Source of the DNA: Streptomyces sp. NBC_01335
GTDB lineage: Bacteria > Actinomycetota > Actinomycetes > Streptomycetales > Streptomycetaceae
Length of the DNA: 64,000 bases
Direction of reading: 5' to 3'
Assembly (NCBI RefSeq): GCF_035953295.1
Contig: NZ_CP108370.1
Location: forward strand, 2,356,001-2,420,000
Position 1 is the stretch's first letter; every line of letters begins with the position of its first letter. The notes under the pieces are model-generated. The model was not told the DNA's origin and did no database searches. It saw only the letters and a list, made by a program, of their open reading frames with translations. The translations under genes were made by a program, and so were the position numbers. This document shows positions 26,215 to 40,770 of this stretch, piece after piece.

Positions 26215-26232
26215 CGCACCGTCACCCACCCG

Positions 26233-26270
26233 TGCGCGAACACTGAAGAACTGCGCGAACACTGAAGAAC
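26233..26270. repeat. Perfect 19-bp tandem duplication upstream of the cupin gene
   Basis: TGCGCGAACACTGAAGAAC occurs at 26233-26251 and again immediately at 26252-26270. The second copy abuts the AAGGAG ribosome site of the cupin gene, so the duplication lengthens the leader without changing the start. Confidence 0.9.
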
Positions 26271-26283
26271 AAGGAGACAGCAG

Positions 26284-26823
26284 ATGGCCGTCCAGCCCTC
26301 CGCCGCCAAGCTTCCCGTCACGTCCCTCCCGCAGGGCGAGCTGCTGACGCTGAACGTCAACGACATCCCGGTGATCAAGGACTCGCTCGGCCCGGGCATC
26401 CACTACCAGCCGCTCTTCCTCGACCCCGAGGTCGGCGTCTGGGTCGTGCTGGCCCACTTCTCTCCCGGCGCGGAGCTCCCGATCCACCTGCACACGGGTG
26501 CCGTGCACGCGTACACCCTCAAGGGCTCGTGGGCCTACCGGGAGTACCCGGACCAGCCGCAGACCGAGGGTTCGTACCTGTACGAGCCCGGTGCCTCCGT
26601 CCACAAGCTCTTCGTGCCGGAGAGCAACACCGAGGACACCGTCGTGCTGTACGTCGTCTACGGCGCGAACATCAACTTCTCCGACGACGGCCAGTTCCAC
26701 TCGGTGCTCGACGCGGTCACCATCCAGGGTCTGACCGCCCAGCTCTCCCAGGCACAGGGCCTGGGAGACATCAACTACCTGACGGGCGGGGCCGCCCGCT
26801 ACACCGCCGCCAAGGACGCGTGA
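26284..26823 (+). CDS. Cupin protein, 2,4'-dihydroxyacetophenone dioxygenase-like
   Basis: The 179-residue single-domain cupin has three His in the metal pattern of 2,4'-dihydroxyacetophenone dioxygenase: His68 and His70 in PIHLHTG and His107 in GASVHKL, with no Glu ligand between. The length also matches that enzyme (about 178). AAGGAG lies 7 bases before ATG 26284. The founding enzyme cleaves a hydroxyacetophenone to 4-hydroxybenzoate and formate, but the wider family is diverse, so only an iron-dependent C-C cleaving role is suggested. Neighbouring dehydrogenases and an acyl-CoA ligase fit a degradative pathway. Confidence 0.75.
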   Translation: MAVQPSAAKLPVTSLPQGELLTLNVNDIPVIKDSLGPGIHYQPLFLDPEVGVWVVLAHFSPGAELPIHLHTGAVHAYTLKGSWAYREYPDQPQTEGSYLYEPGASVHKLFVPESNTEDTVVLYVVYGANINFSDDGQFHSVLDAVTIQGLTAQLSQAQGLGDINYLTGGAARYTAAKDA

Positions 26824-26899
26824 GCCCCGTACCGACGGAAAGCGCCTCGGGCGCGTATCCGCAGAGTCGCATCGAAAGCCCGCACGAAAGAGGTCAACG

Positions 26900-28390
26900 G
26901 TGACCAATCTCGCCCACAACCTGGCGCACACCGCCGAGGCCCACCCCGACCGTCCCGCCCTCCGTCTCGACGACCAGGTGCTCGACTACCGGACCCTGGA
27001 CGAGCACAGTGCCCGAGTCGCTTCCTGGCTGACCGCGGAGGGCGTCACGCCGGGCGACCGTGTCGCGATCATGCTGCCCAACATCCCGCAGTTCGCGGTC
27101 GTCTACTACGGAGCACTGCGGGCGGGTGCTGTCGTCGTTCCGATGAACCCCCTGCTGAAGGCCGACGAGGTCGGCTACAGCGCCGGGGACTGCGGCGCTC
27201 GCACGATCGTCACCTGGGGCGCGGCGGCGGCGGAGGCATCGCTCGCCGCCGAGCGGCTGGGCATCACGTGCACCGACGTCACCACCGCCGAATTCGCCAA
27301 CGCTCTCGCCTCCGTGGAGCTCCCCACCACGATCACGGAGCGCGCGGACGACGACGCGGCCGTAATCCTCTACACCTCGGGCACCACCGGCCGCCCGAAG
27401 GGAGCCGTCCTCACCCACGGCAACCTGCAGAGCAACACCGAGACCGTCAGCGGGCTCCTCGGCATCACCGGCACCGACACGGTCTTCGGCGGCCTGCCCT
27501 TCTTCCACGTCTTCGGGCAGACCTGCGGACTCAACGCCGCCGTGCTGACCGGCGCCTGCGTGACGCTCCTGCCGCGCTTCGACGCCGCCGCCGCGCTGCG
27601 GATCCTGCTCCGCGACCAGGTCACCGTCATGGAAGGGGTGCCCACCATGTTCGTCGCCCTGCTCGCGGCGGCGGAGGTGGCCGGCGGGGCGGGCACCGAC
27701 ACCGTGCGGATCTCGGCGACCGGCGGCTCGGCCATGCCGGTCGACGTGCTGCACCGCTTCGAGGCGGCCTTCGGCTGCCCCGTCGTCGAGGGGTACGGAC
27801 TGTCCGAGACCGCGCCTGTGGTCACGCTCGGGGCGGTCGACGGTGTGCGCAAGCCCGGTTCGATCGGCACACCCATCGACGGGGTGGAGGTCCGGCTGAT
27901 CGACGAGGAGGGCAAGGACTCCCCCGAGGGCGGCATCGGGGAGATCGCCGTACGCGGCCCCAACATCATGTCGGGCTACTGGAACCGGCCCGATGCCGAG
28001 GCGGCCTCCTTCACGGACGGCTGGTTCCGTACCGGCGATCTCGCCCGCCGCGACGTGGACGGGCACTACTTCATCGTCGACCGCAAGAAGGACATGATCA
28101 TCAGGGGTGGCTACAACGTCTACCCCCGTGAGATCGAGGAACTGCTCTACACGCACCCCGCCGTCGCCGAGGCCGCCGTCATCGGCGTCCCGCACGAGCT
28201 CCACGGGGAGGAGATCACCGCGTTCATCACGCTCAGGCCCGGTGTCACGGCCACGCCGGAGGACCTGCGCGCGTACGTCAAGGCCCGGGTCGCCCCGTAC
28301 AAGTACCCCCGGATCGTCCGCCTCGCCGACACGCTCCCCAAGGGCCCGACGGGCAAGATCCTCAAGCGCGCCCTCTCGGAGCGGTCCTGA
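26900..28390 (+). CDS. AMP-dependent acyl-CoA ligase
   Basis: The 496-residue protein carries all ANL-ligase motifs: LYTSGTTGRPKGAVLTH (P-loop), VEGYGLSETAP, WFRTGDLARRD, GGYNVYPREIEELL and PKGPTGKILKR, whose Lys is the adenylation catalyst. It should activate a carboxylic acid (medium/long-chain or aromatic) as its CoA thioester. GTG 26900 follows GAAAGAGG. It is the last gene of the AraC-divergent operon, consistent with activating the acid released by the cupin or dehydrogenases. Confidence 0.92.
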   Translation: MTNLAHNLAHTAEAHPDRPALRLDDQVLDYRTLDEHSARVASWLTAEGVTPGDRVAIMLPNIPQFAVVYYGALRAGAVVVPMNPLLKADEVGYSAGDCGARTIVTWGAAAAEASLAAERLGITCTDVTTAEFANALASVELPTTITERADDDAAVILYTSGTTGRPKGAVLTHGNLQSNTETVSGLLGITGTDTVFGGLPFFHVFGQTCGLNAAVLTGACVTLLPRFDAAAALRILLRDQVTVMEGVPTMFVALLAAAEVAGGAGTDTVRISATGGSAMPVDVLHRFEAAFGCPVVEGYGLSETAPVVTLGAVDGVRKPGSIGTPIDGVEVRLIDEEGKDSPEGGIGEIAVRGPNIMSGYWNRPDAEAASFTDGWFRTGDLARRDVDGHYFIVDRKKDMIIRGGYNVYPREIEELLYTHPAVAEAAVIGVPHELHGEEITAFITLRPGVTATPEDLRAYVKARVAPYKYPRIVRLADTLPKGPTGKILKRALSERS

Positions 28391-28508
28391 CCGCACCCGC
28401 CACGGCCGCAGGTCGCCTGGACCGCTGAACAACCCGGAGCACTTCTTCGCCCCGAACGAGCCGGTGGCGGCCGGGACGGACATCCAGGATGCCCGGCGTC
28501 CCCCTCGT

Positions 28509-28530
28509 CCGCCCCGGCCGCCCCGGGCGG
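28509..28530. terminator. Possible hairpin between convergent ligase and radical SAM genes
   Basis: CCGCCCCGG (28509-28517) pairs with CCGGGCGG (28523-28530) with one bulged base, directly before the radical SAM stop codon. Confidence 0.4.
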
Positions 28531-28532
28531 TC

Positions 28533-30734
28533 TCAGACCCGGGCCTGCGTCGCGAGCATCACACGCAGGGCGCGGGTCACGGCGTTGTCCGTGCCGAAGT
28601 CCACCCCGGCGGGCACCTCGACCAGGCCGCCGTTGGCCATGACCAGGACGCCGCAGGCCCCGGGTCGGGCCGTGCCGGGGCCGTCCAGCCATTCCTCGTA
28701 CGCGCCGGACGTGGTGTCGAGGTGCGCCCTGCTCCTGCGGCTCACCTCCGCCATCAGCTCGTCGACACCGGTCAGTTCGTCGACGGAGGCGAACGGAATC
28801 CTCACCACCGGCTCCTCGACCAGGCGGACACGGGGCTCCTTCTCGCGGCCGGTCCCCTCGGGTGCCTCGGGCAGGAGTCCGCGGCCGAAACGCGCGAAGT
28901 ACAGCAGGGTGTGCGCGGAGTCGATGCCGCCGAGGAAGGGGCGGTCGAAGCTGGTTTTGCGGTTGCCGGTGCTGTACTCGCGGGGAATCCGCGGGTCCTC
29001 CGCCACCGGCCAGTGGGCCTCGCCGGTCTCCCGGTCCCGCCAGGGCAGGTAGCGCCGGATGTCGTCGGAGGCGGAGAGCGGCAGCAGATCGACGCCGAAG
29101 CGCCCGGGGTCCTTGGCCACGATGGAACCGGGCGTCAGCGCGAACACCCCGATGCCCGCGGTGGTCCACAGCTTCTCGTGGTGCTGGAGGAACTCGTACG
29201 TCGCCAGCGCCTCCGCCCGGGTCTCGGTGGGGAAGCCGGTGAAGCCCATGATCTGGGCGGCGATGCCGTTGCGTGCCAGCTCGGCCAGGACGTCGGGGAC
29301 GACGTCGATCCCGACCCCCTTGTCGATGAGGTCGAGGATCCGCTGGGCGCCGGACTCGTAGCCGAAGGAGATCGCGACGCAGCCGGAGGCCGCGAGGAGT
29401 TCACCCACGGCACGCTTGGGGAACGTGCGTTCCAACCGCAGCTCGGCGGACCACCGCAGGTCCAGGGTCGATTCCACGAGGGCGGCGGCGAGGGTGCGCA
29501 GATAGCGGGGGGACATGGCGTCCACCGCGAAGTACAGGGTCCTGCCGTAGCGGCTCGCCTCCCGCAGGTCCTCCAGCACGGCGGCGACAGGGCGTTCACG
29601 TGACGGCGAGGTCGGCCGGTCGGTGTTGAGGCCGTAGTCGCAGAAGGTGCACTTGTTCCAGTAGCAGCCCCGGGTCGGGCTGTAGAGGATGACCGGCTCG
29701 GGTGCCCAGTAGCGCTCCCAGTCCCACACGTCGTACGCCGGGGAGGCGAGCGCCGCCACATCGCTGTACGCGATGTCGGGGACCGGCCGGCTCCTGGTCA
29801 TCACGCCGCCGATGGCCTCGAAGGCGTCGCCGCCCCGGACCGCGCCGTTGCCGACCGCGTCGAGGATGCCGATGAGCGCGGCCTCGCCCTCGCCGGGCAC
29901 GATCAGGTCGGCGTCCTGGAATACCCGCCACGGGGCCGCGAGGTCCGGGGCGTACTTGACCACGTCGCCGACCTCGGTGCCGCCGAAGACGATCACCGTG
30001 TCGGGCAGCACGGTACGGATCAGGCGGGCCATCCTCAGGGCGACGGGCAGCTGGCTGGTGTAGTTGACCGACAGGCCCACCACCGCCCAGGGGCGTTCGC
30101 GCAGTTTCGGGACGAACTCGTCGGCGAAGTAGCCCTCGAAGGGGCGGGCGAGGGCCGCCGGGACAGCCGGGTCGGACAGGTCCGCCGTACTGCACAGGTT
30201 GACGGCGGACTTCACCCGCATCGAGAAGCCGTCCGCCGCGCCGGGCGGCATCTCCAGGGCGATCAGGTCCCACCACCGGCTCATCACCGCGACCGCCTGG
30301 GCGTAGGTCGGGGGGTGGTAGAAGTGCTCGGGGTCCTGGAACACGCCGATCGCGTCGCGGGCCGATGTGGCGCTCAGGCCCTCGGCGGCCAGCGCCTGCC
30401 GGTAACGGATCTCGTCGTGCCGGCGCGGGGCGGCGGACCTGGCGTCGATCTCGGCGCGGGCGCGGCGGGCGGCGGCGAGCGTCGCGCCGAAGCGCTCGGG
30501 GTCGGCGAGGTAGGTGAAGGCGTCGAGGTTGGCGTCCACACAGGCGTACTCGGTGTGGCCGGCCTCGCGGGCGGCGCCCACGAGGTACGGGATCGAGTGG
30601 TAGGCGGTCGTCGGGTCGGTCACCGGCGGGTTGACCAGCAGGTAGGCGGTGTTGCCGGTGCCCCGGCCCGGCCGCCGGCCGTGGCCGGGCTCCCCCTCGA
30701 ACCGCGGCATGCCCAACGGGACGAACACGCTCAT
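28533..30734 (-). CDS. Cobalamin-type radical SAM enzyme of the RiPP-like cluster
   Basis: ATG 30734 overlaps the MFS stop (ATGA) and gives 733 residues; longer starts run into the MFS gene. The N-terminal part resembles a B12-binding region (YLLVNPPVTD at 31-40; VGLSVNYTSQLPVALRMARL at 219-238; VIVFGGTEVGDVV). The radical SAM core begins at RGCYWNKCTFCDYG with Cys357, Cys362 and Cys365, a CX4CX2C spacing rather than the common CX3CX2C. A ~180-residue C-terminal extension (from about 550) is unassigned. Relatives methylate or rearrange peptides and small molecules. It closes the leftward operon that starts with a Cys-ending precursor, so peptide tailoring is the most natural role. Confidence 0.85.
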   Translation of the reverse strand: MSVFVPLGMPRFEGEPGHGRRPGRGTGNTAYLLVNPPVTDPTTAYHSIPYLVGAAREAGHTEYACVDANLDAFTYLADPERFGATLAAARRARAEIDARSAAPRRHDEIRYRQALAAEGLSATSARDAIGVFQDPEHFYHPPTYAQAVAVMSRWWDLIALEMPPGAADGFSMRVKSAVNLCSTADLSDPAVPAALARPFEGYFADEFVPKLRERPWAVVGLSVNYTSQLPVALRMARLIRTVLPDTVIVFGGTEVGDVVKYAPDLAAPWRVFQDADLIVPGEGEAALIGILDAVGNGAVRGGDAFEAIGGVMTRSRPVPDIAYSDVAALASPAYDVWDWERYWAPEPVILYSPTRGCYWNKCTFCDYGLNTDRPTSPSRERPVAAVLEDLREASRYGRTLYFAVDAMSPRYLRTLAAALVESTLDLRWSAELRLERTFPKRAVGELLAASGCVAISFGYESGAQRILDLIDKGVGIDVVPDVLAELARNGIAAQIMGFTGFPTETRAEALATYEFLQHHEKLWTTAGIGVFALTPGSIVAKDPGRFGVDLLPLSASDDIRRYLPWRDRETGEAHWPVAEDPRIPREYSTGNRKTSFDRPFLGGIDSAHTLLYFARFGRGLLPEAPEGTGREKEPRVRLVEEPVVRIPFASVDELTGVDELMAEVSRRSRAHLDTTSGAYEEWLDGPGTARPGACGVLVMANGGLVEVPAGVDFGTDNAVTRALRVMLATQARV

Positions 30735-32104
30735 CGCTGTGACTCCTGACTGTTGTCCTGCCGTGGATGCGGGGCACGGGCGGCCTGCACGCCGGAGGCG
30801 GGGCCGCTCGCCGGGGCCCCCGGAGGTGCGGGGACCGGTGGGGCGTACTCGGTGCCGGAGCGGTGGTCGCGAAAGGCGCGCTGGCTGAGCGCGCCCAGTA
30901 CGGACAGGGCGATGGCCGCGCCCGCCACCGGGAAGAACGGTGCCGCGCCGAGGTGGCGGACCCCGAAGCCGGCCACGGCCACGGAGACCGGGAAGGTGCC
31001 CATGACGGCCAGCATGACCAGGCTCATGACCCGGCCGATGAGTGCCGGCGGGGCCCAGACCTGGAGCAGTGTCACCACGACGATGTTCTGCCAGCCGCTG
31101 GCCAGCGCGTAGACGCACACGCACACGGCGGCGCCGACCAGGCCGCCGGCGTACGGGACGGCGCTCAAGGCGATGCCCATGACGACCGCGAGGGCGGCGA
31201 AGAGATAGGCGGGCGACTCCACCGGCCGGCTGCGGGCGGCCACCAGCGAACCGGCGAGACCGCCCAGGCTCAGGCAGGTGAGCAGGACACCGTAGCCGGT
31301 GGCGCCCATGCCCTGGTGGGCCAGTTCGGGCAGGGCCACCTCGATCGTGCCGTTGAAGGCCAGGTTGCAGACGAGGGCCACCACCAGGACGACGTGCAAC
31401 AGCCTTCCGTGGCGCAGCAGTTCGACGAAGGACGTCTCGCGGGCCGGGAGTTCCTCGGCACCCGCGGGCCCGTCCTTCCGGGGCGCGTCCGCATCCGCGC
31501 CGGAGCGTATCCGGGCGAGCACCAGCGCCGACACGAGGAAGGACGCGGCGTCGACGGTGAGCGCCGGGCCCGCGTCGAAGGCGGCCACCAGGGCGCCGCC
31601 CGCCGTCGGCCCGAGGAGTCCGCCGACCTGGTTGACCATGGTCGACAGGGCGTTGCCCCGGCCCAGGTCCTCCTTGGGCAGCAGGGCGGGCAGAAGGGTG
31701 TACGAGGCGGGGATGAAGATCCCGGAGCAGGCGCCCAGGACGACGGCGATGGGCGCGAGCTGGGCCAGAGTCGGTGTCCCGGTCGAGGCGAGCACCGCGA
31801 GGATGCCCACGGCCACGGCCCGCACCAGGTCGGCCACGAGCATCACCCGCCGGCCGCCGATCCGGTCGGCCACCACGCCGCCCAGCGGAATGGTGACGAC
31901 GCGGGGGATGCCGTAGCAGGCCAGGACCGTGCCGAGCAGGACGGGGCCGCCGTCACCGGAGAGAATCAGCCACGGCAGCGCCACGGCGTAGCAGTAGTCG
32001 CCGACCGTGGAGGAGAGCTGCCCGGCGAGCAGCAGCCGGAAGCCGCGCACCGACATCGGTCCGCTCGCCAGTGCCGTACGGAACCTCTGTCCGGCTGGTG
32101 CCAC
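30731..32104 (-). CDS. MFS exporter of the RiPP-like cluster
   Basis: The 457-residue protein starts at GTG 32104 behind GAGGAGG and has about 12 helices; VADRIGGRRVMLVADLVRA after helix 2 is the MFS motif A of the MefE/macrolide-efflux branch. It sits between the flavoprotein (100 bases upstream) and the cobalamin radical SAM gene (ATGA overlap), so it likely exports the mature product and gives self-protection. No ABC peptide exporter with peptidase domain is present in the cluster. The C-terminal 45 residues are Pro/Ala-rich and cytoplasmic. Confidence 0.85.
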   Translation of the reverse strand: MAPAGQRFRTALASGPMSVRGFRLLLAGQLSSTVGDYCYAVALPWLILSGDGGPVLLGTVLACYGIPRVVTIPLGGVVADRIGGRRVMLVADLVRAVAVGILAVLASTGTPTLAQLAPIAVVLGACSGIFIPASYTLLPALLPKEDLGRGNALSTMVNQVGGLLGPTAGGALVAAFDAGPALTVDAASFLVSALVLARIRSGADADAPRKDGPAGAEELPARETSFVELLRHGRLLHVVLVVALVCNLAFNGTIEVALPELAHQGMGATGYGVLLTCLSLGGLAGSLVAARSRPVESPAYLFAALAVVMGIALSAVPYAGGLVGAAVCVCVYALASGWQNIVVVTLLQVWAPPALIGRVMSLVMLAVMGTFPVSVAVAGFGVRHLGAAPFFPVAGAAIALSVLGALSQRAFRDHRSGTEYAPPVPAPPGAPASGPASGVQAARAPHPRQDNSQESQR

Positions 32105-32204
32105 GTGTCCTCCTCGTGCTGGTGCCGGTGTTCAGCCGCCGAGCGGGCCTGGGCGGTGTCCTCGAACTGCCGTCGCACGGCGGACGGCAGTGTGAAGGCG
32201 CGCC

Positions 32205-32798
32205 CTACGGGACAGCCGTCACGTCCAGGTCCAGGAACTCGCGGATCACCGCGGTCACGGTGTTCGGCGGCGGCAGCCCGAGGTTCTTGCGTACGTCGCC
32301 CGCGGAGATCTGCCAGGCGGGGGCGGGTACCGGGTCCACCACGGCGTGGCCGTCGGCGCGCAGCCGGGCCACGTTCCGGCGGACGGCGGGGCGCTCCCAC
32401 ATCAGGCTGTTCATGCTCGGGAAGAACAGCACCGGGCGCTCGTGGGCGAGCAGTGCCGAGCTGAGGAGTCCGGAGGCGAGTCCGTTGGCGGCCTGGCCGA
32501 GCATGTTGGCGGTGGCGGGCAGGACGACGAACCGTTCCGCCCAGACGGCGGGGGCGACATGGCCGATCGTCAGTTCGTCCTCGCCGTCGCAGTACACGTC
32601 CCGGCACAGCAGACGCATGGTGGCGGCCGGGACGAGCACGGCGGCGGAGCGGGTCATGGCCATGCGGATCTCGACGCCGGGTCCGAGGCCGGTGCGCAGG
32701 GCCATGAGGTACTGCGGAACGGCGAGTACGTTGCCGGAGCCGCACACCCCGATGAGTAGCCGGCGAGGGGAGTCCGGGCCGGTCTCCGCCGTCTTCAC
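32205..32798 (-). CDS. HFCD-family flavoprotein (EpiD-like Cys decarboxylase)
   Basis: The 197-residue protein begins at GTG 32798, overlapping the SPASM enzyme stop. It shows all marks of homo-oligomeric flavin Cys decarboxylases: LLIGVCGSGNVLAVPQ at the N-terminus, active-site His80 in IGHVAP, LPATANMLGQAANGLASGLL (from 93) for FMN binding, and PSMNSLMW (127-134), the substrate clamp equivalent to the PxMNxxMW of EpiD and coenzyme A biosynthesis decarboxylases. A housekeeping Dfp protein would be fused to a synthetase domain, which is absent. The precursor of this operon ends in Cys, so oxidative decarboxylation of that Cys to an enethiol is strongly suggested. Confidence 0.85.
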   Translation of the reverse strand: MKTAETGPDSPRRLLIGVCGSGNVLAVPQYLMALRTGLGPGVEIRMAMTRSAAVLVPAATMRLLCRDVYCDGEDELTIGHVAPAVWAERFVVLPATANMLGQAANGLASGLLSSALLAHERPVLFFPSMNSLMWERPAVRRNVARLRADGHAVVDPVPAPAWQISAGDVRKNLGLPPPNTVTAVIREFLDLDVTAVP

Positions 32799-34159
32799 CG
32801 GGCTCCGGCGGGCTCACCGGCCGCCTCGCGCAGGCCGATCTGGGCGGCGACGAGATCGAGCCTCTCCTGAACGTTGTACTTGTAGCTGGGGCAGGGCGGA
32901 TGGCCCTCCTGCCATGCCTTGGGGCAGGCGCCGCCGCAGGTGGGCATGAAGACGCAGCCCTTGCACCAGGTGGTGCCCGCGGCGATCTCGTCGTTCCAGC
33001 CGTCGAAGGGGCCCAGCGGCCGGACCGGTTCGGTGCCCGCCCGGTCGATGTGCGTCAGCACGAGGGTGCGCTCGGCCTCGGGGACGAGGGGGTACTCGCT
33101 GCACGAGAAGATGTTTCCGGTGCTGCTGATGATCTCGGACGAGCGGGTCGTGGCCGGGCAGAGGACCTTCCGCGCGGTGGTCGGCATCAGCTGCGTGTGC
33201 AGCCCGTGCTGGGCGAGCAGCCGGAGCCACCCCGTCTCGCGTTCGGCGAACTCCTGCTTGGACACCTCGATCGCCGATACGTCGTTTCCCCACGAGTGGA
33301 CGGGAAAGATCGAGAAGGACACGCGGGGGTGGCTGAAACCCAACTCCGCCATCAGCTCGATATAGCGGGGTACGTCGTCCTGGTTGTGCACATCGACATT
33401 CGTCCGGAACGAGAAATGGGTGGGCCCAAGATCCGGTTCGTCGAGTACGGAACGCACGGCGCGCACGATGTTCCAGAAAGATCCGCGTCCGCTTTTCAGT
33501 GGCCGGTGTTCATTGTGTATGTCCGGCGGCCCGTCGATCGTGATCTCGAAATGGGTGACCCCGCAGGAGCGGATCAGTGTGCCGATTTTCTTCGGGGTGA
33601 GGAGGGAGCCGTTGGTGACGATCACCGAGGAGTAGGCGACCCCGCGCTCGGCGGCGGCGGCGACGAACCGGGGGGCGAGGTCGCGGATGACCGCGTAGCC
33701 CATCATCGGTTCGGCCCCGAACCAGTCGATGCGGGCACTGCGGGTCTCCGGGGCGTTCACGGCGCGCAGCACGCGGTCGCGGACCCGGCTGCGGTGGGTG
33801 TGGGACAGCCCGCCCCGGGTGTGCTCCTGGCCGCAGTAGGCGCACCCCATGTTGCAGTAGGAGGTCGGCAGCAGGGCGATGTGCACGGCCGAACGCTCCG
33901 CCGACGCGCGTCGGTTGCGGTCGAGTACGGCGGACAGCTCGTCCTCGCCGGCCGGTACGAGCAGCTGGGCCGCGCGCAGCGCGCCGGTCCAGGCCGGGGT
34001 GAGCGCGCCGGCGTCCCGGGCCTCCAGTGCCCGCGCGGTGGGGAGGTCCACCGCGATGGTGCTGGCGGTGCGGGTGCCGTAGGCGAGCCGAACCGGGACG
34101 CCGGTGGTGTCGGCGTACGCGCGGTCGCTCAGCACCAGGTATCTGCTGACTTGGTCCAT
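32795..34159 (-). CDS. Radical SAM/SPASM peptide maturase
   Basis: Three starts lie in a row (GTG 34165, ATG 34162, ATG 34159). ATG 34159 is chosen because AGGGAG then lies 7 bases upstream, giving 454 residues. An N-terminal ~85-residue domain (RYLVLSDRAYAD, AAQLLVPAGEDEL) resembles the leader-handling region in front of many actinobacterial SPASM enzymes. The core has SYCNMGCAYCGQ with Cys102, Cys106 and Cys109. The SPASM end has Cys-rich CPATTRSSEI, NIFSCSEY and CKGCVFMPTCGGACPKA for auxiliary clusters. Such enzymes make thioether, C-C or C-O cross-links. It directly follows the precursor gene behind a hairpin. Confidence 0.92.
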   Translation of the reverse strand: MDQVSRYLVLSDRAYADTTGVPVRLAYGTRTASTIAVDLPTARALEARDAGALTPAWTGALRAAQLLVPAGEDELSAVLDRNRRASAERSAVHIALLPTSYCNMGCAYCGQEHTRGGLSHTHRSRVRDRVLRAVNAPETRSARIDWFGAEPMMGYAVIRDLAPRFVAAAAERGVAYSSVIVTNGSLLTPKKIGTLIRSCGVTHFEITIDGPPDIHNEHRPLKSGRGSFWNIVRAVRSVLDEPDLGPTHFSFRTNVDVHNQDDVPRYIELMAELGFSHPRVSFSIFPVHSWGNDVSAIEVSKQEFAERETGWLRLLAQHGLHTQLMPTTARKVLCPATTRSSEIISSTGNIFSCSEYPLVPEAERTLVLTHIDRAGTEPVRPLGPFDGWNDEIAAGTTWCKGCVFMPTCGGACPKAWQEGHPPCPSYKYNVQERLDLVAAQIGLREAAGEPAGAR

Positions 34160-34196
34160 CATCACGCTCCCTCTGGGTGTCCGGGCGCACGGCGGT

Positions 34197-34233
34197 CCGG
34201 TGGGTCCGGCGGCGGTGCCGCCGGACCCACCGG
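34197..34233 (-). terminator. Perfect 17-bp hairpin between precursor and maturase genes
   Basis: Bases 34197-34213 pair perfectly with 34217-34233 around a 3-base loop. It begins 8 bases after the precursor stop and ends ~35 bases before the SPASM enzyme start. A leaky terminator or mRNA stabiliser here would give much more precursor than enzyme, as is common in peptide operons. No U-tract is present. Confidence 0.8.
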
Positions 34234-34241
34234 GTCTGGAA

Positions 34242-34439
34242 TCAGCAGAGGACGTTGACCTGGTTGTCGTTCACCTGGCCCTCGACCGCGGCCGACACGG
34301 CGTTGAGCCGGGCCTGGATCGAGCCGAGGACCGCGACCTCGTCCGGGCTGAGGGCACTGAAGACGTCGCGCTCGGACTCCGACAGCAGGTCGACCGGGGT
34401 GCCGGCGCTGCGCAGCGCGTCGAGGGGTGCTTGCGACAT
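34242..34439 (-). CDS. Candidate RiPP precursor peptide ending in Cys
   Basis: The 65-residue peptide starts at ATG 34439 with a perfect AAGGAG 6 bases upstream. Residues 6-55 form a helical leader-like domain (LDALRSAGTPVDLL, then SIQARLNAVSAAVEGQ). A 10-residue tail follows: VNDNQVNVLC, ending in the only Cys. It is the first gene before the SPASM enzyme and the Cys-decarboxylase-like flavoprotein. The LuxR protein encoded divergently has the same leader region at 29 of 50 positions but lacks the Cys tail. I recall an NCBI name, aroma-sacti cluster domain, for such ~55-residue regions; this is from memory and unverified. Core boundaries are inferred. Confidence 0.8.
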   Translation of the reverse strand: MSQAPLDALRSAGTPVDLLSESERDVFSALSPDEVAVLGSIQARLNAVSAAVEGQVNDNQVNVLC

Positions 34440-34650
34440 GGGTCACTCCTTCATGGGGATGGTCACGGGCTGGTGCAATCGCAAGGATGCTCCGGCACGC
34501 CCGGGCTTCGTATCCCTCGAATGACTATGATTCCGGTGGCATATGAACCCACTCAAGGCGTGCTTGTCCGGAGCATGACCCGCAGCTACTCTCTTGCCCG
34601 GGAGCGCGGCATTTCTCTGCCGGCCAACGCTTCGCTCGCCGAAACGAGGG
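34440..34650. promoter_or_regulatory. Divergent promoter region of the RiPP-like cluster
   Basis: This 211-base spacer separates the precursor and luxR starts and is clearly richer in A and T than its flanks. TATGAT at 34526-34531 could be a -10 box for luxR, but no convincing -35 partner is seen. The region must hold both promoters and probably the LuxR binding site. Confidence 0.5.
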
Positions 34651-35187
34651 GTGAAGATTTTGACCAGGCGTGAGATTTTGATCGCTTCGCTCGTGGCCGC
34701 CGGCTCCTCGAACCGGGATATCGCTGAGGCTCTGTGCATCAGCCCGCACACGGTGGCGGCTCATTTATGCAACATGCTCCGAAGAACGGGCGCATCGAAT
34801 CGCACGGAAATGATTGCGCGACTGTACGCCCAGGGTGTTCTGGTCCAGGGGATCTGGCCGCCGCTGCCCGCGGACGAGCGGAAGCGGCAGGAGGCCCCCG
34901 GGGGCATCGGCGCCCTCGCGGTGCTGACGGTCGCGGAGCGCTCCATCGGATCGGCCGGCGTCCCTGTCGACTGGCCGCACTACGGGAACGAGGTACCGGT
35001 AGTCATGCCCTTCGACGCCCTGCACGCACTACGTGAGGCCGGCCACCCGGTGGACCTGCTGGCGGTCGAGCAGCGCTCGGTCCTCTCGGGGCTCAGCGAG
35101 CACGAGGTCCAGGTCCTCAACACCGTCAAGGAGCGGCTGGAAGCGGTGTCCGGTGAGGTGGAGGGACAGGACCTCAAGCTCCTGTGA
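34651..35187 (+). CDS. LuxR-type regulator fused to a precursor-leader-like domain
   Basis: From GTG 34651 (TTG 34660 has better ribosome-site spacing and is an alternative) the protein has 178 residues. Residues 4-60 are a LuxR/FixJ helix-turn-helix (LTRREILIASLVAAGSSNRD, then TVAAHLCNMLRRTGA). After a linker, residues 124-173 repeat the leader region of the precursor encoded next door: LHALREAGHPVDLL and ERLEAVSGEVEGQ, 29 of 50 identical and ungapped. It ends in DLKLL without Cys. Codon 39 is TTA (34765-34767), the bldA-dependent Leu codon. No receiver domain is present. The leader copy may let maturation enzymes bind and gate the regulator; that is inference. Coupled by GTGA to the next gene. 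Confidence 0.85.
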   Translation: MKILTRREILIASLVAAGSSNRDIAEALCISPHTVAAHLCNMLRRTGASNRTEMIARLYAQGVLVQGIWPPLPADERKRQEAPGGIGALAVLTVAERSIGSAGVPVDWPHYGNEVPVVMPFDALHALREAGHPVDLLAVEQRSVLSGLSEHEVQVLNTVKERLEAVSGEVEGQDLKLL

Positions 35188-38100
35188 ACGACGCCGCGCG
35201 GTGCGGCGGTTGCCGTGCCACGGTGCCGGACGGAGCCCGGTTCTGCCCGGAGTGCGGCACCCCGGTCGTCGTGGGGGCGCCGTCGTCGGACAGCCGCAGA
35301 ATCGTCACGGCGCTCTTCATCGACCTCGTCGGCTCGACGGTGCTCGCCGAGACCCTGGACCCCGAAGCGCTGCGGCGCACGATGGACCGGTACTACCGGG
35401 CCTGCACGACGGCGGTCACCGAACACGGGGGCGTCGTCGAGAAGTTCATCGGCGACGCCGTGATGGCGGTCTTCGGGGCGTTCGTCACCCATGAGGACGA
35501 CGCCCTGCACGCGGTCCGGGCGGCGTGCGCCGTCCGGGAGGCCGTGACGGCCATCGGCACCGGTGCCGGAGGGTCCCGCGCGGGGGTGCCGCTGGACACC
35601 CACTGCGGGATCGCTTCGGGAGAGGCCGTGGTGGCGGGGGCACTCGGCGGCGCGGCCAGGGTGGTCGGGGACGTCGTGCACACCGCCGCCCGCCTCCAGT
35701 CGCACGCCGAGCCGCACGAGATCCTCGTCGGCGAGGAGACGGCCCGCCTGGTCGGCGGCCGGGTCCGTATGGAGGCCGTCGCACCGCTGCGGGTGAGGGG
35801 CAAGCGCGAACCGGTCGCCGCCCGGCGGGTCCTGTCCGTCCTCGACGCGGCGAGCCGGGAGGACCTGGTCCCGCTCGTCGGGCGCGACGGTGAACTACGG
35901 CTCCTGTTGGACGAGTTCGCGGAAACCCGGGGCGAGCGCCGCAGCCTCCTCGTCACGGTCGCCGGCCCCCCGGGCATCGGCAAGTCGCGCCTGGTGCGGG
36001 AGTTCCTGGGCCGGGCCGGGGAGGACGCCGTCGTCCTGAGGGCCGGCTGCCAGGCGTACGGCGCCGGACTCGCCCACCGCCCGCTGGCCGAGGCGGTCTG
36101 GTCGCTGCCCGGCGGCTGGGAGGAGGCGCAGGGGGCGCTGGAGACGCTGCGCCCGAGCGCGGACCGCGCCGTCACCGCCCTCGCGGTCGCCCTGGGCATC
36201 CGCACCGAGAGCGGGCTCCCGGTGAGCGTCGACGAGATCGGGTGGGCGTTCCGGCGGCTCCTGGAGGCCCTGGGCCGCCACACCCCGGTGATCCTGGTCC
36301 TGGAGGACTTCCAGTGGGCGCAGCCGACCCTCTCCGACATGGTCGCCGATTTCGGCAAGGGCGCCCGGGACACCCCGCTGCTGGTCATCCGCGTGGCGCG
36401 CGCCGAGACGGGCGCGGTGCCGGCCGGGGACCTCGCCCTGCGTCTCGACGCGCTGCCGCCCGCGCAGACCGAGCGGCTGGTGGGACTGCTCGCGGACCGG
36501 GCGGAGGTCGCCGCGCAGGAGGCGGTCGCCACCGAGGACGACCTGGCCCGGGTCGTGCGGGAGTGCGACGGCAACCCGCTGTTCGCCGAGCTGCTCCTGG
36601 AGAACCTGGTCGGCCGGGAGGCCGTGGACCGGGGCGTTCCCACGTCGATCCGGGTCCTGTTGACGGCCTGGCTGGACCGGCTGCCGGCTGCCGACCGGGC
36701 CGTGCTGGAACGAGCGGCGGTGGTGGGTGGGTCGTTCGGTGCCGAGGAGGTGCGCGCACTCGCCGTGAACGAGCCGGCGCTGGCGGGCGGGGTCCTCGAC
36801 GACGCCCTGGCCAGGCTGGTGCGCTCCCGGGTGATCCATCTGTCCGGCTCGCCCGGCACGTACCGGTTCACCCGCGCACTGGCCCGGGACACGTTGTACG
36901 AGATGACCTCGAAGGCCCGGCGCGCGGCCTGGCACACCGTGCTCGCGGACCGGCTCGAAGCCCGTCCGCCGGGCCCGGCCGCGGAGAGCGACCTCGCCCA
37001 CCGCCTGGAGTCCGCGTGCCGCCTGCTGTCCGAGGCCGATCCGGGCGATCCCGGGCTGCCCGCGCTGACCGGGCGTGCGGCCCGCGCCCTGGTGGCCACC
37101 GGGTACCGGGCGCTGCACCGCCGGGACCTGCCCGCAGCCGTCTCGCTGATGGAACGCGGGCGCGGTCTCACTCCGGACGGCGACCCCCAGCACCGGGTAC
37201 TCGCCGCCCGCATCACCGACACGTATGCCGCGCTGGGCCGTTGGGACAGCGCCCGGCAGGCCGTGGCGGAGGCGGAGCGCAGGAACGGGGCCGACGCCCC
37301 GACCCGGGACACCTGCGCCATCCTGCGGCAGCTGATCGCTCTGCGCTCGGGCGGGGCGGAGCCCGCCGGGGCCCCGTACGCCCCGGGTGCCGGACGTGCC
37401 GAGCCCGGTCCGGCGGACGACCTGAGCTGGTGCAGGCTGCACCAGCTGTCCTCGCTGCGGAGCTTCGCCGAGGGCCGGGTCGGCGCGGCGGAGGGCTCGA
37501 TGCGTGACGCGCTCCGCCGGGCGCGCGGGCTCGGCGACACCTACGAGGGGAACCGCATCCTCGCGTCGATCTGTGAGCTGACGCAGTGGTCGCCGACCCC
37601 GCTCACCCAGGCCATCGACCTCTGCGAGGAGCTGGTCCGGCGGTTCGACGGCGACCGGAGCCTGCTCGTGCCGGTCCTGCTCACCCGGGCCCGGCATCTG
37701 GCCCTGTCGGACCGGGTGGACGCGGCCCGCGAGGACATCGCGCTGGTCCGCAGGCACTGCGACGACCTGGCACTGGCCCTCGGAACGCTCGCGGCCGGCC
37801 AGACGGCGGGGTTCGTCGAGTCCCTCGCCGGGGCGCACCTGCCGGCCGCCGGCCACTACACGGCCGCGGCGGACGGGCTCGCCGCTCTGGGGCAGACGCG
37901 GACGGCGGCCACCCTGCGCCTGTACGCGGCCCGGGAGCGGTTCTGCGCCGGGGACGGCTTCGGTCCGGACGCGGCCGAGCTCGCCGGGCCGCCCGCGGAC
38001 CGGCCGGAGGAGACCCGTACCCGGGCCGTCCGGCTGGCGCTGCGGGCGCGGGTGCGGGCGCGGGCCGGGGCGTACGGGGACGCGGTCGGGGACGCCGAGC

Positions 38101-38312
38101 GGGCGACCGCCACGCTGGAGGGCACCGACGACCCCTGTCTCATCGGTGACGTCTGGTTCGAGGCGGCCCGGGTGCTGGACGCCGCCGGTGAACCGGAGCG
38201 CGCCCGGCATGCCGCCGGGCGGGCGCTGGACGCCCTGACGGCGAAGGAGGCCGTGCTCCCCGCCCGGACGGTGCGGGCGTGGAGAGCGGCCGGAGCGTGG
38301 GAGAACCGATGA
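35184..38312 (+). CDS. Adenylate/guanylate cyclase-AAA-TPR signalling protein
   Basis: The 1042-residue protein has an N-terminal zinc ribbon (Cys7, Cys10, Cys21, Cys24), a class III nucleotidyl cyclase domain (about 38-215) with both metal Asp residues (Asp47 in ALFIDLVGS, Asp91 in FIGDAVMAVFG), an AAA/STAND ATPase (Walker A GPPGIGKS at 261-268, Walker B ILVLEDFQWA) and a long TPR-like helical C-terminus. It resembles the CyaA-ATPase fusions common in actinobacteria. It is coupled to the LuxR-leader gene by GTGA and to the subtilase by ATGA, which makes it part of the cluster's regulatory arm. The signal sensed is unknown. Confidence 0.88.
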   Translation: MNDAARCGGCRATVPDGARFCPECGTPVVVGAPSSDSRRIVTALFIDLVGSTVLAETLDPEALRRTMDRYYRACTTAVTEHGGVVEKFIGDAVMAVFGAFVTHEDDALHAVRAACAVREAVTAIGTGAGGSRAGVPLDTHCGIASGEAVVAGALGGAARVVGDVVHTAARLQSHAEPHEILVGEETARLVGGRVRMEAVAPLRVRGKREPVAARRVLSVLDAASREDLVPLVGRDGELRLLLDEFAETRGERRSLLVTVAGPPGIGKSRLVREFLGRAGEDAVVLRAGCQAYGAGLAHRPLAEAVWSLPGGWEEAQGALETLRPSADRAVTALAVALGIRTESGLPVSVDEIGWAFRRLLEALGRHTPVILVLEDFQWAQPTLSDMVADFGKGARDTPLLVIRVARAETGAVPAGDLALRLDALPPAQTERLVGLLADRAEVAAQEAVATEDDLARVVRECDGNPLFAELLLENLVGREAVDRGVPTSIRVLLTAWLDRLPAADRAVLERAAVVGGSFGAEEVRALAVNEPALAGGVLDDALARLVRSRVIHLSGSPGTYRFTRALARDTLYEMTSKARRAAWHTVLADRLEARPPGPAAESDLAHRLESACRLLSEADPGDPGLPALTGRAARALVATGYRALHRRDLPAAVSLMERGRGLTPDGDPQHRVLAARITDTYAALGRWDSARQAVAEAERRNGADAPTRDTCAILRQLIALRSGGAEPAGAPYAPGAGRAEPGPADDLSWCRLHQLSSLRSFAEGRVGAAEGSMRDALRRARGLGDTYEGNRILASICELTQWSPTPLTQAIDLCEELVRRFDGDRSLLVPVLLTRARHLALSDRVDAAREDIALVRRHCDDLALALGTLAAGQTAGFVESLAGAHLPAAGHYTAAADGLAALGQTRTAATLRLYAARERFCAGDGFGPDAAELAGPPADRPEETRTRAVRLALRARVRARAGAYGDAVGDAERATATLEGTDDPCLIGDVWFEAARVLDAAGEPERARHAAGRALDALTAKEAVLPARTVRAWRAAGAWENR

Positions 38313-39184
38313 GCGATCCACCCTGGAGACGGCCCGCGCGGCCCTACACGCCGGGCGTACCGGCCTGGGGCGCGACGAGGGCGCAGGCGCGTGAGAGGTT
38401 CGCGTCCGTCCCCCTGGAATCGGTCTCCCCGGAGTGGGCGTGGGGCGGAGCCGACGGTTCCGGGGTCCGGGTGTGCGTCGTGGACAGCGGGGTCGAGGGC
38501 GGCCACCCGATGGTCGGCCCGGTCGACCTCGCCATGACGGCCGCGACGGCCGAGGACGGCGAGGTGGAGATGGTGCCGTGCGAGCCCACCGACCGCGCCG
38601 GACACGGCACCGCCTGCGCCGGGGTGATCCGGTCCCTCGCGCCGGGGGTCTCGGTCTCGTCCGTCCAGGTGCTGACCGACGGCAAGACGGGCAGCGGCCC
38701 GGCGCTCATCGCCGGGCTCTCCTGGGCCGTCGAGCAGAACTTCGACGTCATCAACCTGAGCCTGGCAACGACCCGGCCGGCCCTGACCGCGCAGCTCCAC
38801 GAGCTCGCCGACCGGGCCTACTTCCGCCGGTGCGCGCTCGTCGTCTCCGCGCACAACCGGCCGGTGACCAGCTATCCCTGGTCGTTCTCCTCGGTGATCT
38901 CCGTCGCGAGCCACGACGAGGACGACCCGATGACGTACTACTACAACCCCGCGCCGCCCGTGGAGTTCCACGCGCGCGGTGTGCGCGTCCCCGTGGCGTG
39001 GCCCGGCGGCGGCACCATCCGCTCGACCGGCAACAGCTTCGCCGCGCCCCACATCTCGGGCCTGTGCGCGCTGATCCTCGGCAAGCACCCCTGGCTCACG
39101 CCGTTCCAGCTCAAGACGGTGCTGTTCCTCTGCGCCGGAAACACCACCGGTCGACTTGGAGGTGCGCATGACGAAACCCGTTGA
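38309..39184 (+). CDS. S8 subtilisin-like protease without signal peptide
   Basis: The 291-residue protein has a complete catalytic triad: Asp59 in VCVVDSGVEGGHP, His99 in DRAGHGTACAGV and Ser243 in GNSFAAPHIS, plus the oxyanion Asn183. There is no signal peptide and no long propeptide, so it should act in the cytoplasm. In a RiPP context this fits leader removal. It overlaps the cyclase gene by ATGA and the GAF gene by 17 bases. A regulatory protease acting on the LuxR-leader fusion is an alternative. Confidence 0.88.
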   Translation: MSDPPWRRPARPYTPGVPAWGATRAQARERFASVPLESVSPEWAWGGADGSGVRVCVVDSGVEGGHPMVGPVDLAMTAATAEDGEVEMVPCEPTDRAGHGTACAGVIRSLAPGVSVSSVQVLTDGKTGSGPALIAGLSWAVEQNFDVINLSLATTRPALTAQLHELADRAYFRRCALVVSAHNRPVTSYPWSFSSVISVASHDEDDPMTYYYNPAPPVEFHARGVRVPVAWPGGGTIRSTGNSFAAPHISGLCALILGKHPWLTPFQLKTVLFLCAGNTTGRLGGAHDETR

Positions 39185-39722
39185 CGCCGCGACGCCCGTG
39201 GAGCGCCGCCTGCTGCAGTCCATCGTGGAAGTCGCGCGCCATGCCTTCGGCGCTGCGGCCTCCTCGATCTTCCTCATCGATCCGGAGACCGGTGACCTGG
39301 TCTTCGAGGCCGTGGCCGGTGAGGGCGACGGCCAACTCGTCGGTACGCGTTTCCCGGCGGGGACCGGCATCGCGGGCTGGGTCGCCTCGTCCGGTCAGTC
39401 GATGCTCGTCGACGACCTGCGCGAGTCGCGGCACTTCTCGGGCGATGCCGCCGCTTCCACCGGGTACGTGCCCGACAGCATCATGGCCGCGCCGCTGTTC
39501 GGCGACGACGAGTGCGTGGGCGTGCTGGAGGTACTGGACCGGGGCGCCGGCGGCGCACGGGAGATGGCGGACGTCGAACTCCTCGGGCTGCTCGCCGACC
39601 AGGCCGCCATCGGGCTCGAACTGCTCACCCGGCTGCGCGCCGCCGACCCGAGCAACCGTTCCGACAAGGCCCTGCGGCTCCTGGAGATGGCGGAATCGCT
39701 GCTGTCCCCGACCCATGGCTGA
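39168..39722 (+). CDS. GAF-domain protein
   Basis: ATG 39168 is preceded by TTGGAGG and lies inside the end of the protease gene. The 184-residue protein is a single GAF domain (about 10-155: ASSIFLIDPETGDLVFEAV, GTGIAGWVASSGQSMLVDD, DSIMAAPLFGDDECVGVLEV) with a short helical tail. No kinase, phosphatase or cyclase output domain is attached, so it probably senses a small ligand or redox state and works through a partner such as the cyclase protein encoded two genes upstream. Confidence 0.88.
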   Translation: MTKPVDAATPVERRLLQSIVEVARHAFGAAASSIFLIDPETGDLVFEAVAGEGDGQLVGTRFPAGTGIAGWVASSGQSMLVDDLRESRHFSGDAAASTGYVPDSIMAAPLFGDDECVGVLEVLDRGAGGAREMADVELLGLLADQAAIGLELLTRLRAADPSNRSDKALRLLEMAESLLSPTHG

Positions 39723-40713
39723 GCGGTGCGTCCTGCTGCTCACCAGACGGGACGACGGGGAGGCGACCGAGGCGTCAGCCCTGCTGCGCCGCATCGGGGT
39801 GTCCGTGCACCGGCTCGACGCGGACGGCCTGGCGGACGTCCGGGCCGTTCACGGGCCGGACGGTGTACTGACCCTGGACGGGCACCGGTTCGCCCCGACG
39901 GTGACCTGGCTGCGCCACTACTCCCTGCGGGCCGCGCCGGACGGACCGCCGGACGGTCCGGCCGGGGGGCGGATGGTGTACCGGGACGCGTGGACCGCGC
40001 TGGCCCAGCAGCTGGCCGCTGTCTCCCCGGCCACCGTCGGCGCCGCCGATCCGGGGCAGCTGGTGCAGCGGGCCCGGGCCCTGGCGCTCGGCGTACGCAT
40101 CCCGCGCGGGCTGGTCACCACCGACCCGGCGGACGCGGCCGGGCTGCTCCCGGCCGAGCGGTACGTGCTCAAGGTCCTCGACCGGCACTACGTGGAGCCG
40201 GAGCCCGGCCGGCTCGACTGGTACCTGCCGCGGGTCCTGGACCGGGAGCGGCTCGCCGGCCTGCCCGGCCTGCCCCGGGGCACACCGGTGATGCTCCAGG
40301 AGTACGTCGAGCACGACGCCGAGTACCGGGTCTACCTCGCCGGGGACGAGCTGCACGCCTTCGAGGTGGCCAAGGAGCACCCGGAGGACATCTGGACCCG
40401 CCCGGACGAGGTGGGGGTACGTCAGGTCCGGTGCCCGGCCGCCGTCGCGTCGGCGGCACGCGCCATCGCCCGGGAGACGGGTGCCGTCTTCGGGGCGTTC
40501 GACTTCCTCCGTGACCGGGACGGGGGCGAGCCGGTCTTCCTGGAGATGAACGCGCACGGCGACTGGCACTGGTTCGAGCGCAAGGCCGGCGTCGACGTGG
40601 TGACCCGGGCCGTGGTGCGGACCGTACGGGACCTGCACCGGGCCGCCGTCGGCAGCGCGCGCCCGGCGGCGGTCAGCCTGCTCGCCTTCCTCGGCGCGGG
40701 CCGGGGCGGGTGA
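39715..40713 (+). CDS. ATP-grasp ligase of the RiPP-like cluster
   Basis: The 332-residue protein has a pre-ATP-grasp N-terminal domain (1-110) and an ATP-grasp fold with Lys153 (YVLKVLD), the hinge MLQEYVEHDAEYRVYLAG and the metal-binding end VFLEMNAHGDWHWFE (272-288). That end resembles the E-N-x-x-G-x-W-x-W-x-E pattern of microviridin-type peptide ligases and other ATP-grasp RiPP enzymes. It could form an ester or amide on the peptide, or add an amino acid. It is the last gene of the rightward arm and overlaps the GAF gene by 8 bases. Confidence 0.82.
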   Translation: MAERCVLLLTRRDDGEATEASALLRRIGVSVHRLDADGLADVRAVHGPDGVLTLDGHRFAPTVTWLRHYSLRAAPDGPPDGPAGGRMVYRDAWTALAQQLAAVSPATVGAADPGQLVQRARALALGVRIPRGLVTTDPADAAGLLPAERYVLKVLDRHYVEPEPGRLDWYLPRVLDRERLAGLPGLPRGTPVMLQEYVEHDAEYRVYLAGDELHAFEVAKEHPEDIWTRPDEVGVRQVRCPAAVASAARAIARETGAVFGAFDFLRDRDGGEPVFLEMNAHGDWHWFERKAGVDVVTRAVVRTVRDLHRAAVGSARPAAVSLLAFLGAGRGG

Positions 40714-40770
40714 CCCGGCCGGCCGATGTCCCGCAGCCCCGGTCCTACGGCCCCGGCCCCACGGCCCGGG

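Follow-up and report, generated by a model that had tools for sequence, protein, structure and literature searches.

The window analyzed here, a 64,000-nucleotide stretch of the Streptomyces sp. NBC_01335 genome (contig NZ_CP108370.1, positions 2,356,001 to 2,420,000), carries ten genes that form a discrete, conserved and self-contained cassette for a ribosomally synthesized and post-translationally modified peptide (RiPP). One arm of the cassette encodes a precursor peptide, a SPASM-type radical SAM enzyme, a flavoprotein, an exporter and a B12-type radical SAM enzyme; the other encodes a LuxR-type regulator fused to a second leader domain, a cyclase/ATPase protein, a subtilase, a GAF-domain protein and an ATP-grasp ligase. 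We propose, with a probability of roughly two in three, that the cassette makes a ring peptide by SPASM thioether formation and Cys decarboxylation, yielding S-(2-aminovinyl)-3-carbamoylcysteine (AviCamCys), that the leader-tagged regulator belongs to a control arm, and that the ligase acts on or together with the second leader. The cassette is a real and conserved RiPP system, and its central chemistry is of a kind already reported.

Proposed maturation of the Cys-terminal precursor

In the proposed pathway, the SPASM enzyme would activate the C-beta of the Asn three residues before the C-terminal Cys to form an Asn-C-beta-S-Cys thioether, and the MrsD-like flavoprotein would oxidatively decarboxylate the C-terminal Cys, in either order; together, these steps would give a C-terminal four-residue ring with AviCamCys, about 48 Da below the linear core. 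In the step that we hold least firmly, the B12-type radical SAM enzyme might C-methylate the peptide. The subtilase would then cut the shared leader near a conserved V-E-G-Q, and the major facilitator superfamily (MFS) protein would export the product.

Two published systems resemble this scheme. In the excerpts of PMC8326336 and PMC13361665 that we drew on, the streptococcal ranthipeptide NxxcA is modified by a single radical SAM enzyme, NxxcB, which joins Cys23 to the C-beta of Asn20, that is, a Cys to the Asn at i-3; this spacing together with a Cys decarboxylase predicts AviCamCys. The same sequence arrangement, an Asn and a Cys at i and i+3 beside a radical SAM/SPASM enzyme, holds for 33 of 33 precursors in our comparison, and a C-beta link is predicted for the window peptide. 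The streptococcal systems differ in forming a RaS-RiPP subfamily linked to Rgg regulators, and those excerpts mention no Cys decarboxylase. The second system is AviCamCys itself, which the excerpt of PMC11162475 attributes to the cooperation of a flavoprotein and a radical SAM enzyme (citing Cheng, Huang, Duan, Liu, Angew. Chem. 2023, 10.1002/anie.202308733). Its C-terminal unsaturated thioether residue is based on 3-carbamoylcysteine and so derives from Asn, as N-x-x-C plus a Cys decarboxylase predicts; the window likewise combines a radical SAM enzyme and a LanD-type flavoprotein with a precursor that has the Asn and a C-terminal Cys, the class being defined here from its description alone. 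The AviCamCys cluster may be a relative of this cassette.

The Asn-C-beta/aminovinyl ring was predicted before we found AviCamCys mentioned in PMC11162475, the only paper among the matches listed in our literature search to use the word. Because AviCamCys was reported in 2023, the SPASM/HFCD pairing is not new but already described in kind, and the view of an initial sequence-only reading of this DNA, that it knew of no class joining a SPASM enzyme and a Cys decarboxylase with a B12-type radical enzyme and an ATP-grasp ligase, is not supported as regards the first two, given the excerpted account of that radical SAM and LanD pair. The present comparison extends Asn-Cys unsaturated thioether chemistry to a genomic rule: within this SPASM family all identified precursors carry N-x-x-C, and the decarboxylase is found only where the Cys of this motif is the C-terminal residue.

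Conservation of the N-x-x-C motif

The window precursor ends in N-V-L-C. Across 31 loci with a related SPASM enzyme, the window included, N-x-x-C is present in every one of the 33 identified precursors (31 precursors in 29 loci, with 23 different cores, plus two plasmid loci), at a SPASM relatedness that reaches down to 32% identity in Rhizobium; these counts leave out loci that carry the leader domain described below (the aroma domain) with a weakly similar SPASM protein (52-64 bits). All 25 precursors that lie beside a flavoprotein end in the motif, and Asn(-3) and Cys(0) are the sole invariant positions among their last eight residues. Precursors of the cassette end in NVLC, NVVC, NNLC, NCLC, NTVC or NSLC. 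In more distant SPASM relatives the leaders differ, those of L075, L088 and L168 being unrelated (L and G numbers are our own handles), yet the motif persists: as NNIC in L074, NGSC in L075, NFGC in L086 and, beside a flavoprotein, NIAC in L088; as NGVCGNGC in L087, NVGCCG in L077 and NGICA in L167; and in the plasmid loci as an NGNC end (Streptomyces, L168) and an internal NSGC (Rhizobium, L169). Eight precursors are without a flavoprotein in the stretch covered by the profile search (only 7.4 kb for L074), and in four of these (L087, L077, L167 and L169) the motif is not at the C-terminus.

Since the cassette precursors were found by their leader, they constitute an unbiased test of the motif. 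A control scan of 948,518 bases from 50 other aroma-domain loci returned no open reading frame (ORF) ending in N-x-x-C, compared with five of nine outgroup SPASM loci, and because of this control we consider the exact-end result to be strong. When N-x-x-C was allowed anywhere within the last 25 residues, the control loci gave 16 ORFs (0.17 per 10 kb), whereas each of the nine outgroup loci gave one or more; the looser matches in L087, L077, L167 and L169 are each individually weaker. The L077 and L167 precursors, absent from the end-of-ORF searches and found by the looser search, have a V-[EQ]-G-H motif in common with L086; the motif ORF of L169 is the annotated gene directly upstream.

Enzymes of the precursor arm

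The CxxxCxxC and SPASM cysteines of the SPASM enzyme are invariant in 14 of 14 aligned sequences, and by sequence, profile and predicted fold the closest solved structure is 5wgg/5why, a thioether-forming maturase that we take to be CteB (template modeling score ~0.6; mean predicted local distance difference test score, pLDDT, of the model 77). The decarboxylase association may have a single origin, for which a tree of 20 of the SPASM proteins has support of 48/91 and long branches. The flavoprotein matches, among profiles of solved structures, MrsD (140 bits), 7cfu ('DNA/pantothenate metabolism flavoprotein', 100 bits), EpiD (65 bits) and CoaBC (60 bits). One His and a PxMNxxMW sequence, presumably the HFCD/LanD active-site motif, show no variation between the window and 25 other aligned rows, which represent 22 distinct loci, and are kept in L088. 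The motif, the ranking of MrsD and EpiD above CoaBC among solved structures, and a precursor with a C-terminal Cys lead us to predict that this flavoprotein is an HFCD/LanD peptidyl-cysteine decarboxylase.

A different linkage could produce a similar peptide: the SPASM enzyme might make a sactipeptide-type alpha-thioether or another Asn-Cys link, with the flavoprotein then decarboxylating the Cys to leave a C-terminal ring that is not AviCamCys. The locus does fall into a group named for sactipeptides, its second arm is common to CxC precursors of the StsA-related sactipeptide family, and alpha and beta links are indistinguishable by sequence; however, the N-x-x-C spacing is that of NxxcA, where the excerpts describe a C-beta link, and the published product of a radical SAM/flavoprotein pair, as excerpted, is AviCamCys. 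We regard this alternative as unlikely. The window precursor itself scores 25.1 bits against the model of the StsA-related family, NF045559 (cut-off 75), and has no CxC.

Several points weigh against our preferred assignment of AviCamCys. Its basis is the genes, their motifs, conservation and co-occurrence, from which the reactions, the product and the binding are all predicted; an alpha or other linkage at the Asn would also fit the sequence, and the NxxcB and AviCamCys enzymes were compared by description only, not by sequence. The SPASM protein stays under every NCBIfam cut-off, the best NCBIfam model of the flavoprotein is CoaBC (89 bits; cut-off 220), and the CypD-type decarboxylase model NF033753 gives it 16 bits (cut-off 215). 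The nine outgroup precursors were picked by this motif or by a C-terminal Cys near a SPASM gene, which introduces a success bias. Finally, L074, L075, L086 and L168 end in N-x-x-C with no flavoprotein in the stretch covered, so that a Cys end alone does not require decarboxylation.

Classical S-(2-aminovinyl)cysteine (AviCys) formation, in which a dehydroamino acid would accept the decarboxylated Cys while the SPASM enzyme does other work such as epimerization or C-C bond formation, would suit the MrsD-like flavoprotein. Yet the window core contains no Ser, Thr or second Cys and thus no dehydroalanine acceptor of the classical kind, no dehydratase family was matched by any of the ten proteins in Pfam and NCBIfam scans, and Asn(-3) is invariant in all 25 flavoprotein-linked precursors. 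With neither an acceptor in the core nor a dehydratase match by the criteria for lanthipeptides, linaridins and thioamitides, we rejected this candidate, whose probability we consider very small. The window resembles the mersacidin and epidermin systems of MrsD and EpiD in flavoprotein family and C-terminal Cys precursor, and differs from them in that its core offers no dehydrated acceptor, the predicted acceptor being Asn. A published genome-mining rule for aminovinyl peptides needs a Ser or Thr acceptor, according to the excerpt of PMC11162475, and would therefore miss the peptide of the window.

For the B12-type enzyme, GCYWNKCTFC (Cx4Cx2C) is invariant in 10 of 10 aligned sequences, the B12-binding domain narrowly misses its Pfam cut-off (30.1 bits; cut-off 32.1), no NCBIfam cut-off is reached, and profile matches to AprD4, TokK and OxsB are weak; that it C-methylates the peptide is a guess. 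Its assignment to the RiPP C-methyltransferases of TIGR03975 was rejected (80.2 bits; cut-off 281.85). A second B12 radical SAM gene is present in L069 and L070, and the L069 copy is a true TIGR03975 member (616 bits). The protease is a subtilisin relative that scores 96 bits against the QhpE model (cut-off 165).

A leader-bearing regulator and an ATP-grasp ligase

Both peptides of the cassette carry the leader domain that the sequence-only reading had seen in each of them: the precursor scores 68.2 bits and the LuxR fusion 69.4 bits against NF045560 (cut-off 30), a family already catalogued by NCBI as the 'aroma-sacti cluster domain'. The term 'aroma-sacti' was not found in our literature search. 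What is unusual and more surprising about the locus is this leader-tagged regulator together with its ligase; a literature search aimed at this second arm found no description of it and matched one unrelated genome-mining paper.

We classed 78 distinct aroma-domain loci (62 of the 63 above-cut-off genomes of a genus scan, plus 16 loci from a contig scan with the SPASM protein) by the tail of their second-arm leader peptide. The tail is [DE]hKhh in 27 loci, and in all 25 of these that are long enough to assess, the window included, an ATP-grasp gene is present; by contrast, none of the 51 loci with a Phe or Trp tail, short contigs among them (L092, L106, L127 and L128), matches any of four ligase queries. 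Six CxC loci whose product arm is different (L038-L040 and L120-L122) fall into the [DE]hKhh group; the one precursor of these that was scanned scores 133 bits against NF045559. L069 stands outside both tail groups and has lost its second leader, cyclase and ligase together. Because of the tail co-occurrence and this joint loss, we assign the ligase to the module of the second peptide, where the [DE]hKhh tail would be its likely substrate or partner and the cyclase and GAF proteins would belong to the same module; it counts against this part of our proposal that the ligase-tail association comes from few lineages.

Other aroma-sacti clusters (NF045560, NF045559) share with the window the leader domain and the cyclase-subtilase-GAF arm, and differ from it in that 51 of the 62 genus-scan Streptomyces loci are aromatic-tailed without such an ATP-grasp gene and the CxC loci have a different core. 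A near-invariant leader peptide occurs in many Streptomyces (L043-L049, L089-L119 and L123-L128), with ends such as AHSEIAGGALF, AHGEIAGGALF and AHADVAGGALF, and mostly adjoins a cyclase-subtilase-GAF arm.

Pfam and NCBIfam models match the ATP-grasp protein only below threshold (TIGR04187, 80.8 bits; cut-off 350). Its profile matches to solved structures are led by graspetide ligases (AMdnB 83, MdnB 79, CdnC 74 and PruB 68 bits; also MdnC and PsnB), and AMdnB, PruB and PsnB come first by fold, with RimK and LysX close behind (model mean pLDDT 82.5). Although graspetide synthetases (AMdnB, MdnB, CdnC, PruB and PsnB) are its best relatives by profile and fold, the locus is unlike graspetide systems in that a classical core is missing: the protein on which the ligase would act is partly a transcription factor and offers just one [DE]-x-K pair. 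This is the one possible donor/acceptor pair in the tail, and because a lactam between Asp/Glu and a Lys two positions away would close a very small ring, a simple intramolecular graspetide is disfavored.

The sequence-only reading had directed the ligase to the one Cys-terminal peptide, a view that the tail counts do not support. If it held, the ligase would form, for example, an omega-ester or amide on the Cys-terminal core, so that one peptide would receive all modifications; the ligase is indeed found in every assessable cassette except L069, and by profile it resembles the macrocyclases of graspetides. However, the six CxC loci with a [DE]hKhh tail have the ligase without this core, L069 has lost the ligase along with both the second leader and the cyclase, and the window core, which has one Asp (not conserved across cassette cores) and no Lys, Ser or Thr, is not a graspetide core. 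We consider such a single-peptide pathway improbable and, given the ligase-tail co-occurrence, set it aside as unsupported.

The second leader is fused to a LuxR helix-turn-helix (HTH) domain in Streptomyces-type cassettes, while L070 and L073 have it called as a 60-residue gene with no HTH match and the same tail pattern. It is conceivable, if rather doubtful, that the LuxR regulator is itself a RiPP-like substrate, with a functional leader and a five-residue [DE]hKhh core that is crosslinked by the ligase (Asp/Glu to Lys, within or between chains), trimmed by the subtilase, or both; if so, the state of the regulator would report on maturation machinery shared with the precursor and would switch the precursor promoter through a conserved box. 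On another account, the protein with the second leader, tail included, serves solely as a decoy or regulator domain and is never modified, and the ligase acts on a small molecule or another protein. The HTH fusion of the Streptomyces type favors this account, as does the fact that within N-x-x-C cassettes the box goes with the HTH, but the tail pattern is unchanged in L070-L073 and L076, where the second leader has no HTH match; we view it as possible, though on the unlikely side. The second arm, for which we favor the second leader as substrate or partner of the ligase, raises two testable questions: by what route a DNA-binding regulator acquired a RiPP leader as one of its domains, and why this leader is accompanied by a ligase of graspetide type.

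A candidate operator upstream of the precursor gene

The HTH-leader fusion would exert control by binding a 16-base box, TAGTCNATYGRGGGAT, upstream of the precursor gene. Among 88 sequences scanned, the box occurs with at most one mismatch in 16 of 16 distinct HTH-fusion cassettes (19 records); the six HTH-less cassettes and all other loci have at least three mismatches. At up to two mismatches the pattern is found once in the whole window, against 0.14 occurrences expected. Two points speak against the predicted control: the pattern was derived from an alignment of 15 of these same regions, leaving only L067 as an independent case, and the six CxC loci have no box though they also have a (more distant) HTH-leader fusion. 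L067, from outside the box alignment, matches the box exactly. Promoter and terminator scans gave nothing above shuffled sequences.

Extent, linkage and distribution of the cassette

All ten ORFs lie where the sequence-only reading had placed them, and its family-level assignments hold in Pfam and NCBIfam profile scans, as does its view of a RiPP-type locus, in the form of an NF045560-leader precursor with maturation enzymes in a conserved cassette (Table 1). DNA similarity between the window and 18 compared loci (among them L054, L058, L059 and L065, which are cut or incomplete inside the cassette) is confined to positions 28,488-40,745, and the flanks show none. The stop codon of the LuxR-leader fusion overlaps the start of the cyclase/ATPase gene, whose product is a relative of the TOMM kinase-cyclases (148 bits, under the cut-off of that model). 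Further Pfam matches are the LuxR HTH (GerE, 57 bits), Flavoprotein (73 bits) and, in both radical SAM enzymes, Radical_SAM.

Table 1. Genes and candidate operator of the cassette, in window coordinates.
Feature	Position	Strand	Assignment and evidence
Precursor peptide 1, 65 aa	34242..34439	-	NF045560 leader followed by (V)EGQ; the core, VNDNQVNVLC, ends in N-x-x-C
SPASM radical SAM enzyme	32795..34165	-	predicted to form Asn(C-beta)-S-Cys thioether
HFCD/LanD-type flavoprotein	32205..32798	-	predicted oxidative decarboxylase of C-terminal Cys
MFS exporter	30731..32104	-	MFS_1 121 bits
B12-type radical SAM enzyme	28533..~30734	-	predicted C-methyltransferase
Conserved box, candidate operator	34512..34527	-	1 mismatch in window; 73-88 bp upstream of precursor ATG
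LuxR-type HTH fused to second NF045560 leader domain	34594..35187	+	C-terminal end EGQ-DLKLL; predicted start codon
Zinc-ribbon/class III nucleotide cyclase/AAA-type ATPase protein	35184..38312	+	AAA_16 74 bits, Guanylate_cyc 52 bits
Subtilisin-like protease	38309..39184	+	Peptidase_S8 95 bits; predicted leader peptidase
GAF-domain protein	39156 or 39168..39722	+	GAF 64 bits
ATP-grasp ligase	39715..40713	+	graspetide-synthetase type by profile; co-occurs with [DE]hKhh second peptide

The cassette is rare and patchily distributed. The contig scan with the SPASM protein as query yielded 24 loci; alignment scans with this protein (E up to 1e-60) matched eight of 392 Streptomyces genomes, the window's own included, one of 396 genomes in a phylum sample, which was the window's own, and six of 200 genomes from the family to which the Sphaerisporangium locus belongs, of which five had been found before. 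Each genome was counted once in the locus tallies. L058, whose contig begins at the SPASM gene, and G351, with its match at a contig edge, were left out, as were three duplicate records (L059, L065 and L068, contigs of L035, L034 and L037, respectively). All ten genes are present in 13 loci (the window, L036, L037, L055, L056, L057, L060-L064, L066 and L067), and five more ten-gene loci (L070-L073 and L076) have a second leader without an HTH match. L034, L035 and L058 are truncated at contig ends, and L054 is without most of the cyclase, protease and GAF gene, through deletion or assembly error. Of the second arm, L069 keeps only the protease and GAF gene, and its missing genes are absent even though the contig runs further.

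The prospect that homologous loci might never link the two arms did not materialize: both are linked in 18 of 18 fully assessable cassettes (leader-domain precursor, SPASM enzyme and flavoprotein), in three gene orders. The arms are divergent in Streptomyces-type cassettes. In L067 they share a strand and the second arm leads; in L070-L073 and L076 they also share a strand, but the precursor arm leads and the B12 gene is divergent. The persistence of linkage across three arrangements favors a single functional system. The two arms are separable as well, since L088 has the SPASM enzyme and flavoprotein without the second arm, and most other aroma-domain loci have the cyclase-subtilase-GAF arm without the SPASM-HFCD genes.

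A YcaO gene after the cassette accompanies a Cys or Thr at core position -2 in L069, L070, L072, L073 and L076, and in nine Streptomyces-type genomes (L055, L061, L063, L064, L066, L067, G000, G046 and G145) no YcaO match falls, by coordinates, inside the cassette. The Streptomyces-type residue at -2 is Val (Asn in L067). L071, with Ser at -2 and no adjacent YcaO gene, breaks a strict rule, and the tie between YcaO and Cys or Thr at -2 is suggestive only. The added YcaO genes lie at L069:13947-18003, where two genes without a Pfam match follow, and at L070:18487-19353.

Related and neighboring loci

Several loci pair a SPASM homologue with other genes. L088:2426-4677 contains a 22-residue precursor with an NIAC end, a SPASM enzyme and an HFCD flavoprotein, with no aroma-sacti gene found there, and would represent a minimal ring-forming kernel. 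L168:6711-11526 (plasmid NZ_CP108437.1) has a SPASM homologue and the NGNC-ending precursor, and adjoins a methyltransferase and a SagB/ThcOx-type dehydrogenase, not a decarboxylase. At L169:5671-7341 (Rhizobium etli plasmid pRetIE4803b), the SPASM homologue of 32% identity lies downstream of a small protein with NSGC in mid-sequence, a JmjC-domain gene is next, and a few kb upstream there are cyclase and TIR-like genes. L086:3385-16055 holds a SPASM gene and two more genes that, by eye, begin with a radical-SAM-like CxxxCxxC; its aromatic-tailed leader peptide is distinct from the precursor that ends in NFGC. In the window itself, positions 25126-28390, just outside the cassette, contain genes that by eye resemble a zinc-type alcohol dehydrogenase, a cupin and an AMP-dependent ligase, and that show no similarity to the DNA flanking the cassette in the compared loci.

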